Shown in pieces: positions 2,694 through 54,960 of a stretch of DNA of 64,000 nt. The stretch is taken from the NCBI GenBank assembly GCA_949128115.1, contig OX421963.1:41957979-42021978 (forward strand). The letters run 5' to 3'. Position 1 is the first letter of the stretch. Each line of letters opens with the position of its first letter. The position numbers and the translations under genes are program-made. The stretch is from Anaspis maculata. Its lineage: Eukaryota; Arthropoda; Insecta; Coleoptera; Scraptiidae. The notes beneath the pieces were generated by a model that worked only from the letters and a program-made list of their open reading frames with translations, searched no databases and was not told the DNA's origin.

Positions 2694-3965
2694 CGAAAAT
2701 TTCGACTTGGCTTTGTTCTTTCCAAGGATGTCTGTTCTTTCCTGAACCTCTCGAATAATTTGGCATGCGATGGATGGCAGCACTGAACAGTTTAAATGGA
2801 AGGAGTTATGCCATGCCTCGACCGAATTGTTGCTCCTCGGCAAGTCGGACATAATTCTGTCATGCAAGTGCCACATTACAATGGGAAACCTTGGAGAAGC
2901 GTTGCGGAGTCTACGGCCAACTTAGTTGTTCTCAAAGTACTCAGCAATTGGTTTCAAGTCAGCTGGAAAATCTTCACTGGCGACAATTACTTCAAATGCA
3001 AACTGTACATCCTCTACCGGAACATAGCTTAAAGCTAAGAACATTTTGCATTTTAACCGGAAATTCTCTTCTTCTTGATATTTCCGTGACAAATGTGCAC
3101 TTTGAATATGTCGCCATAAATTTTGTGCCAAGTGAAAACTGCAGCCTACAATTTGGGTGTCAGGAAACTGATGGGTCATTGCATTGATCATCGCATTCTC
3201 AAAATCACAGAGCACACTCGCGGGTTTCAACGTAGGGTCGAATTCCAATAGTTTAGCGAAAACTGTCTTGTAGCTCAATTCCTGCTTGTTGGGCAGCAAA
3301 GCATAAACTAGAGGAATAGCTTTACCATCTATTAAAGAGTGAATGGTGAACATTTGGCAAAATACTTTGGGGCGACACTGAATGTACCATCCAGGCACCA
3401 ATTGGGAAATTCACCTAAAAGTGATGCACTTCGGTACGTCGAAAAAAGAAGAATCCTGCTTTCATCTTCCGCTCCTGAGTCCCATAACAAAAATGGTTCG
3501 CCTTTCTCCGTTTGCATACTTTTCTTCAATTTTAATCTCGTTAATGCTATTGCAGACACCACTGACTTTCAGCTCCTTGTTTCTCAGTCGTTGTACCGTT
3601 TTCCTTGCAGCATCATAGCTTGGAAGTAACACTGCCGCTTCCACCGACACTCGAGAAGTGCTCGCTTGCAGAATTCGTCTTGGCCCGTCTTCGGTTGTTC
3701 TGGCCATATCTTTCATCGCTTCCACTGCAGCTAAAACTTCTATCCTGGCTTTATTCGGGCCGTGGCTATATGGAGTTTTTTCTCTTTTCGTTTCGCCGCA
3801 AACGATCATCCTTCCTCTACAGTTTTTTTTCTGTGCATCTCCACGACCGACGTGGAAGACAGATGTACTTTATCCTTTATCCTTCCTGTATCTGTAGTCG
3901 TTGAAAATGAGAACTGCCGCACCTTTATTGGAACTTGAGAGACTCATCTTCATGCGAATGACATC
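2694..3965 (-). pseudogene. MULE transposase pseudogene with FLYWCH-like N-terminus
   Basis: This is a degenerate Mutator-like transposase read from right to left. The N-terminal part (about 3965-3780) carries a FLYWCH-like stretch (a GYRY-type motif, here DYRYRKDK, and a W-R-C segment). The middle holds FLLWDSGAEDESRILLF and WCLDGTFSVAPKYF. The MULE core follows (about 3400-2925), with DGTF as the first catalytic aspartate region, ALLPNK, LCDFENAMINA for the second aspartate and CSFHLAQNLWR for the conserved C-x2-H. The C-terminal piece (2876-2694) has HDRIMSDLPRSNNSVEAWH. Frame changes near 3500 and near 3350, plus a TAA at 2922-2924 where the family usually has tyrosine (E-N-N-stop-V-G-R), show that it is dead. 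The order and motifs match insect MULEs with FLYWCH fingers. The frame assignments are mine by eye. The terminal inverted repeats of the parent element were not found. Confidence 0.8.
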
Positions 3966-53616: not shown

Positions 53617-53929
53617 AAAATCATAATCTTTGTTCAACTGTTCTTTTTTTTTTAATTTTGTACTTTTTCCAAAATAGTTGTCCCAGTGTCACAAAAAAAA
53701 ACGTCGTCATGTCTGCCGCGGGATCTCTCATCGTAGCCATCTTTCCTGCAATCTCTTTGAAGATAATTAAAATAATCTGTAAAATCACCTTGATAATGCA
53801 ATATTATTTTTGTACACACACACTATTTGTTTCAATTACACGATTCAAGTAATAACAAAATTTATTAATTTGAAAGTACTTGATAAGCAATAACTGACTC
53901 AATGAAATCTGTTCAGTAAGTACTGCTTA

Positions 53930-54960
53930 AGTTATTGAACGTCAAACTTTTGGCTTTGACAGCTTATAGCTTTTGACAGGTGACAGATATGTCATAACTT
54001 CTACATGTCTTGAATAGAGTTCTCTAAGGGCTTTAAAATGAGCTATCAAAAATCAAAATCATTTGGTCAAAATTTCCTGTCATTTCATAGAAATGTGGGT
54101 ATTATCGACAATTATTTTTCCCAGTTTTGGCAGCCGTGATTGCCTGATGTCAACAAAATTTCAACCAAACGTTCCACCCGTCAGATACTATTTACGTACC
54201 AAGTTCCATCAAAATCAGTGGAATTTTTCCAATATCGCGAAAAAAACGGACGTTCCTATTTATTTATGTGCAAAGGTTTCACGCTTTCTATAAAGGGAAG
54301 TTTCGTGATCGAATGAAAAATGACATATGGATTGACATATTGGATTCCGAGACGCCAGACCATCGAGCATCCGCCTCGTATGCCCCAACACTGATGAGAC
54401 CCAAATAGGTCGAAACACGTGTCTGTTGGGTTTCGATGGTGGTGCTCGGTCGGTCTGGCGTGTAGGATTCCTCATCTTCAATATTTAATTATGTTTTGTG
54501 GTACACCTGACAGACGTTTCAGAGCCGAAAGCTCATTTTCTCATACCTTTCCCACTACCAAACGCATGTTCACACAGTTGTATTGCAATCGATCCAGAAA
54601 CCTCGGAAAAACGTGGGACAAGCCCATTTTTACTTGTTTTCCGAAGAAAATTGATTTGTGTATATTCAATTTGCACGCCTGATTTCAATTGGAGCTGCAC
54701 ATATTCCTCGACATATTCCATCAAGTCCCTGGCGGGTAGGTCTTCTTGCTGCAAACTAAATTTGGTTGAAATCCGTTCGCTACTTCTCGAGTTATTTGAC
54801 CTTGAAGTTTTTCTTTGATAGCTTATAACCTTTGACAGATGTCATCACTTTTACATGTTTTGAATAGAGTTTTCCAAGGGCTTCAAATCGAGCTATCAAA
54901 AGTCAAAATCGTTACGTCAAAATTTCCTATCACTCTTATGACATTAACATTTGCCGTTGT
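53930..54960 (+). repeat. Diverged direct repeats flanking the ribozyme
   Basis: Copy a (about 53960-54110) and copy b (about 54815-54950) share GACAGCTTATAGCTTTTGACAG/GATAGCTTATAACCTTTGACAG, CATGT.TTGAATAGAGTT, AAGGGCTT.AAA, GAGCTATCAAAA.TCAAAATC and GTCAAAATTTCCT, about 850 bp apart. Related pieces occur at 1655-1965 and 11850-12000. Confidence 0.65.
54384..54430 (+). ncRNA. Type I hammerhead ribozyme
   Basis: All core elements are present in order. Stem I 5' strand CCCAACA (54384-54390); conserved CTGATGA (54391-54397); stem II GACC (54398-54401), loop CAAATA, GGTC (54408-54411); conserved GAAA (54412-54415); short stem III (A54415-T422 and C416-G421) with tetraloop ACGT; cleavage triplet GTC (54421-54423); stem I 3' strand TGTTGGG (54424-54430), pairing perfectly with CCCAACA. 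Predicted self-cleavage is after C54423. Very short stem III with a palindromic loop is known from hammerheads in Penelope-like elements and retrozymes, which act as dimers. The ribozyme sits within a longer foldback, about 54343-54475 (GGATTCC..ACGCCAGACC and its complement), that extends stem I. Confidence 0.88.

Follow-up and report, generated by a model that had tools for sequence, protein, structure and literature searches.

The window analysed here, a 64-kb stretch of DNA from Anaspis maculata, contains a hammerhead motif inside a foldback, and the question is what kind of element carries this motif and how it came to be inserted. In a covariance search with cmscan, the full RF00163 (Hammerhead_1) model aligned on the plus strand at 54385-54429 with 50.7 bits (E 3.2e-10, threshold 34), and RF00163 was the sole Rfam family above its gathering score within the window. 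A strong match at 54384-54430 had been predicted from the letters alone (hereafter, the sequence-only reading), and the parts named there were all found, namely, CTGATGA, a 4-bp stem II, GAAA, the loop ACGT in stem III and a 7-bp stem I. The cleavage-site GTC occupies 54421-54423. At the level of sequence, there is no doubt about the ribozyme, which presumably cleaves itself. The short stem III had further been read as suggesting that the ribozyme acts as a dimer. With its two base pairs and a tetraloop, stem III likens the ribozyme to invertebrate hammerheads, which according to passages of PMC7229834 self-cleave as single motifs in coral and, more slowly, in mussel. Dimer-only activity therefore does not follow from stem III and was discarded as a conclusion.

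The foldback around the ribozyme was borne out. Inverted repeat I2 has 20-nt arms at 54342-54361 and 54452-54471 that are 85% complementary, and stem I is carried further outward by it. The segment 54335-54478 folded with -71.9 kcal/mol (z -7.28), and none of 200 shuffles was equally good. When the strand is folded in isolation, its MFE structure, a rod in which part of stem I is broken, is 4.2 kcal/mol more stable than the hammerhead-constrained fold. Thus, the ribozyme is in competition with a rod-like fold, and since the isolated strand prefers the rod, ribozyme activity would depend on co-transcriptional folding.

The motif is not solitary. A 33-nt core pattern with at most one mismatch was found at 237 places in the 758-Mb genome, while the reversed pattern used as control gave none, so that further copies with a conserved core, named beforehand as a check, do exist. 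RF00163 matched 73 of 74 scored genome candidates, a lower bound as these were drawn from 118,498 of a loose first pass. Two subfamilies were compared: the larger subfamily B with stem I TTCAGCA/TGCTGGA and subfamily A, the window's own, with CCCAACA/TGTTGGG. In an alignment of 64 copies, 97.2% of the cells pair, compared to 13-46% in slid controls, and there are 24 two-sided changes, almost all of them in stem I. These compensatory changes give modest support because the copies were found with the model and the changes mostly track the subfamily split; as the loci were chosen by ribozyme score, core conservation is biased as well. A chance or degenerate look-alike without ribozyme function would fit the old age of the window copy and the 4.2 kcal/mol by which the hammerhead fold falls short of the MFE structure of the isolated strand, yet it is hardly credible in view of the E value of the match, the number of near-identical cores and the compensatory changes in stem I.

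Tandem copies with a fixed period were also found. Each subfamily B unit in L043 holds one ribozyme, and the units follow one another head to tail as exact repeats at a period of 406 bp. Among the 100 exact matches listed (of 237), 17 neighbour pairs lie less than 1 kb apart, comprising 11 head-to-head pairs, no tail-to-tail pair and six same-sense pairs with a spacing of 406 (five) or 413 (one). Subfamily A was not seen in tandem. Neither the window insert of ~214 bp nor the 406-bp unit has room for a known enzyme. A retrozyme family is very likely, and the earlier proposal of a ribozyme-bearing non-autonomous retroelement with a canonical type I hammerhead is supported. The window element is one old copy of a presumably protein-less, ribozyme-bearing jumping element. 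What the sequence-only reading had lacked were the inverted-pair arm and the hundreds of relatives, some of them in 406-bp tandem. The locus counts given below exclude the duplicates L012, L015, L031, L041 and L042 as well as the distant hammerheads L009-L011.

When the subfamily B loci were mapped to the unit, 26 of 53 were found to consist of abutting head-to-head partial copies, a minus part followed by a plus part. The other 27 have no such abutting pair, which counts against the explanation preferred below. Abutting tail-to-tail pairs were absent from the 53 loci; L050, with a plus and a minus piece lying 410 nt apart and not abutting, was excluded from this count. The inner ends of the arms are scattered, while the outer ends gather in two ranges counted from the ribozyme start, +88 to +104 (near site) and +150 to +164 (tail site). 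The near and tail sites lie at about +95 and +157 in subfamily B, where the end motifs are GACATTAATCA (near) and GACACTAATCA (tail), and at about +92 and +138 in subfamily A. The tail length is ~62 nt in the 406-bp subfamily and ~46 nt in the window subfamily. Both outer ends fell into these bins in 21 of the 26 pairs, with 11 tail/near, 8 near/tail, 2 near/near and 0 tail/tail. One near and one tail end were thus combined in 19 of 21 pairs (1.1e-4 against a fair coin). The near/near pairs are L020 and L036, and L020 is probably a later inverted duplication because its palindrome continues past the element ends into the flanks.

Two arms were also present in the subfamily A loci L014, L016, L029, L034, L049 and L068 and in the window, and were not seen in the subfamily A loci L013, L027 and L030. 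As its arms are on opposite strands, the window copy is a head-to-head pair with the tail end on the left and the near end on the right (Table 1). The right arm is 94.8% identical to L049 over 54332-54485 and 96.5% identical to L016 over 54340-54480; its right end was fixed by the target duplication. The left arm matched the opposite strand of L016 with 80.3% identity over 61 columns (E 4.85e-6) and that of L013 with 84.6% over 52 columns (E 7.7e-10), and its first bases overlap the target duplication.

Table 1. Position and strand of the features assigned in the 64-kb window
Feature	Position	Strand	Basis or remark
Left target-site duplication TATTTATTTATGT	54257..54269		12/13 identical to 54482-54494
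Left arm, antisense, unit ~+140 to +84	54259..54319	-	Outer end at tail site
Inner junction between head-to-head arms	54320..54331		Interval left by the two arms
Right arm, sense, unit ~-59 to +91	54332..54481	+	Outer 3' end at near site
Foldback prolonging stem I into rod	54342..54471	+	Inverted repeat I2 and fold z-score
Type I hammerhead ribozyme	54385..54429	+	Rfam RF00163; predicted cleavage after C54423
Right target-site duplication TATTTAATTATGT	54482..54494		12/13 identical to 54257-54269
RVT_1 reverse transcriptase ORF, 737 aa	36555-38768	+	Pfam
MULE transposase fragment	2922-3410	-	Pfam

Target duplications were tested in 33 paired elements, 26 of subfamily B and 7 of subfamily A. 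The longest exact match between the flanks was at least 9 bp in 19 of the 33 and at least 10 bp in 16, compared to one and none, respectively, of 1056 mismatched flank pairs used as control. The exact duplications of these 19 elements range from 9 to 15 bp; L020, which is also one of the near/near pairs, is counted among them and is doubtful. The remaining 14, including the window, have no exact 9-bp duplication. In the window, only 6 bp are exact, and 13 bp are duplicated with one mismatch, which was equalled at one mismatch by 1 of 3879 random pairs of 30-mers from the window. No left-left or right-right flank matches between loci were found among the 33 paired elements; their flanks are unrelated, and hence they are separate insertions. 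Duplications of 12-13 bp were detected in 3 of 23 single-arm loci tested (L037, L040 and L056; L019, L050, L063 and L074 were left out of this test), so one-armed insertions occur as well.

Inverted arms together with target duplications are also what a palindromic DNA transposon (foldback- or MITE-like) would leave, with hammerheads in its inverted repeats by chance. Such an origin is very improbable, as the termini differ in 19 of 21 pairs, the inner arm ends are variable, the duplication lengths vary and 406-bp tandem units exist. We consider it probable instead that a non-LTR retrozyme was inserted by two-ended target-primed reverse transcription carried out by a Penelope-type enzyme. The hammerhead within a tandem transcript of the retrozyme would cut this transcript into RNA of unit length, which by analogy with other animals would be a circle. 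A Penelope-type endonuclease/reverse transcriptase would make staggered cuts in the two target strands, whose 3' ends would prime reverse transcription inside the RNA, one at the near site and one at the tail site. The two antisense cDNAs would extend toward each other and then be joined. Seen on the top strand, the left cDNA would be antisense and the right one sense, the outer ends would correspond to the start sites and the stagger to the duplication. The product would be a pair of head-to-head arms with fixed ends on the outside, a junction on the inside that varies between copies and a duplication of ~9-15 bp, which is the pattern observed. Concerning the separate parts of this reading, two-ended insertion is likely, and a Penelope enzyme is the best, albeit unproven, candidate for the agent that moves the retrozyme. 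A more specific version, for which the chances appear evenly balanced, is that the retrozyme RNA bears two Penelope-type reverse transcriptase starts, of which one near and one tail start are used per insertion, one per cut strand. The RNA would then be a minimal template that records the two-ended priming of the Penelope enzyme pair on a ribozyme-made circle, with strict near/tail asymmetry.

The inverted arm could also stem from one priming event, followed by self-priming of the cDNA (snap-back) or by a later inverted duplication. Passages of PMC3846280 read Penelope inversions as self-priming, the palindrome of L020 extends past the element ends, and the one-armed insertions L037, L040 and L056 with their 12-13 bp duplications would agree with single priming. 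However, 19 of 21 pairs have the near site on one side and the tail on the other, and a copy of the near-ended arm could not hold the tail; with the tail on one side, simple snap-back copying of the opposite arm is excluded. The target duplications, moreover, lie outside both arms. Altogether, a single priming event is unlikely. The arms of one element were 95.0% alike compared to 92.0% between elements (21 loci; 5 of the 26 pairs, L018, L035, L038, L059 and L069, were skipped due to short overlap), and the arm of the same element was never the best match overall. This comparison was meant to separate one template from two and is weak because age differences blur it.

Concerning the surroundings of the element, the window has 10 ORFs that reach 150 aa, and Pfam matches were obtained for two of them, a MULE transposase and an RVT_1 frame that is probably a LINE. 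A Penelope-type reverse transcriptase was not seen among these ORFs, as had been stated before, and none of them combines a reverse transcriptase with GIY-YIG. RVT_1 frames without GIY-YIG are common near the loci (L021, L035 and the window), which would suit a LINE-type enzyme that moved the retrozyme by ordinary target-primed reverse transcription, with the inversions arising by twin priming. Twin priming of LINEs is a source of 5' inversions; in this process, one cDNA starts from the 3' end of the RNA and the other internally. The retrozyme, in contrast, has both outer ends at two fixed sites, and no poly(A)-like tail was present in the ends inspected. A LINE-type mover is therefore improbable, even more so than a single priming event.

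The direct repeats that had been described as flanking the element are present, with 94 nt and 86% identity at 53989 and 54839, and they are outside of it. They were rejected as part of the element, being at least 186 nt away from it; the insertion has its own duplication (Table 1). As dispersed copies, the repeats extend over 53921-54082 and 54781-54932 (162 columns, 78% identical), and the retrozyme landed between these two copies of an old dispersed repeat.

Penelope-type elements are present in the host. Of 378 genomic candidates for GIY-YIG (PF01541), 150 were scored, which gave at least 29 matches, one of them in an 848-aa frame (L079), in which GIY-YIG is above the cut-off and RVT_1 is weak and sub-threshold. 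L079 has a direct repeat of 112 nt at both ends (876-987 and 3704-3815) and an inverted arm of 863 nt. Inverted arms in the same minus-then-plus order were also found in L080, L081 and L082. These four, picked for long frames out of the 29 listed GIY-YIG places, look like two families. Between the retrozyme and L079-L082, there was no convincing sequence similarity (best E 0.030), and no Rfam hammerhead match was obtained in L079-L082, which speaks against a direct link. The terminal repeats of L079 and L082 hold an altered hammerhead-like motif, CTTGAGAAAGA ... GAAACG, without the CTGANGA core, which we take to be possibly a decayed or minimal Penelope hammerhead.

The insertions resemble those of known Penelope-like elements in several respects. 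In rotifers, passages of PMC3846280 describe head-to-head inverted pLTRs, one of them with a 31-bp tail, and target duplications of 8-10 bp; the 9-15 bp measured here are slightly longer, partly because overlaps with the ends are counted in. Head-to-head arms and an optional tail at one end are thus common to both. The authors favour self-priming for these inversions in the parts consulted and not two-ended priming. For a lizard Penelope element, it was reported that both target strands are cut and extended and that two internal reverse transcriptase starts lie downstream of the hammerhead, the stretch between them being the known tail (PMC11167929); two starts in this position are presumed for the retrozyme as well. 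The retrozyme differs from Penelope-like elements in being presumably non-coding, in its canonical ribozyme, in its longer tail (~62 and ~46 nt in the two subfamilies compared to 30-40 there) and in having no convincing sequence in common with the four host copies.

Animal retrozymes are described in parts of PMC7229834 as type I hammerheads in short tandem repeats that give linear and circular RNA of ~170-400 nt. The elements studied here resemble these metazoan non-LTR retrozymes (Cervera and de la Pena 2020, PMC7229834), as far as those parts go, in the canonical hammerhead of type I, whose stem III has 2 bp and a tetraloop, in a presumably non-coding tandem unit (406 bp, compared to ~170-400 nt there), in self-paired RNA and in the presence of Penelope-like elements in the same genome. 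What is added here are the head-to-head arms, the near/tail rule and the pair of fixed ends, and the circle is presumed. Plant LTR retrozymes are likewise non-autonomous with ribozyme-cut RNA, a cut that is predicted here, and differ by type III hammerheads, LTRs, PBS, PPT and 4-bp duplications (PMC7229834, in part). The same source reports retrozyme-like repeats from insects and crustaceans, and the suggestion of a kind undescribed for this host is not supported. The novelty is the insertion signature and not the ribozyme. No report of this insertion signature for retrozymes was found in searches of an open-access library: the words inverted and head-to-head are absent from the main text of PMC7229834, and inverted occurs once in PMC7761336, within the references.

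As movers of animal retrozymes, Penelope-like elements are only proposed, as a strong candidate, in the passages of PMC7229834. The Penelope-like insertion scars of the sister copies are a hint as to which enzyme mobilises such elements. Being physical traces, the head-to-head arms, the fixed ends and the one-sided tail can be set against Penelope insertions base by base, and the mover of animal retrozymes thereby becomes testable from genomes alone plus one enzyme assay. Penelope integration itself is also touched by the near/tail rule, as for this process self-priming (passages of PMC3846280) stands against the cutting and extension of both strands (PMC11167929).

Some further loci deserve mention. 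At L048:1919-2179, each strand carries a ribozyme, with only a few bases between the two (cores C5:61989479-61989511 on the minus and 61989520-61989552 on the plus strand), and a transcript of either strand would therefore hold one in sense; a GABA-B receptor frame is present in this locus. At L009:4008-4373, a distant hammerhead with 29.6 bits (below gathering) lies ~180 nt upstream of a match resembling U4 snRNA (50.2 bits, above its gathering score); by eye, the intervening sequence includes a tRNA-like stretch. Helenus/Ajax-type snRNA elements were rejected as an explanation of the U4-like match; in parts of PMC10886601, retrozymes are named only in passing. The hammerhead of L010 had no Rfam match at E 1, though its core looks canonical. 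These hammerheads of a third type, L009:4008-4055 and L010 (G000:C1:2837126-2837159), share a 3' flank ending in GGTCGGAGAGCTTTG.
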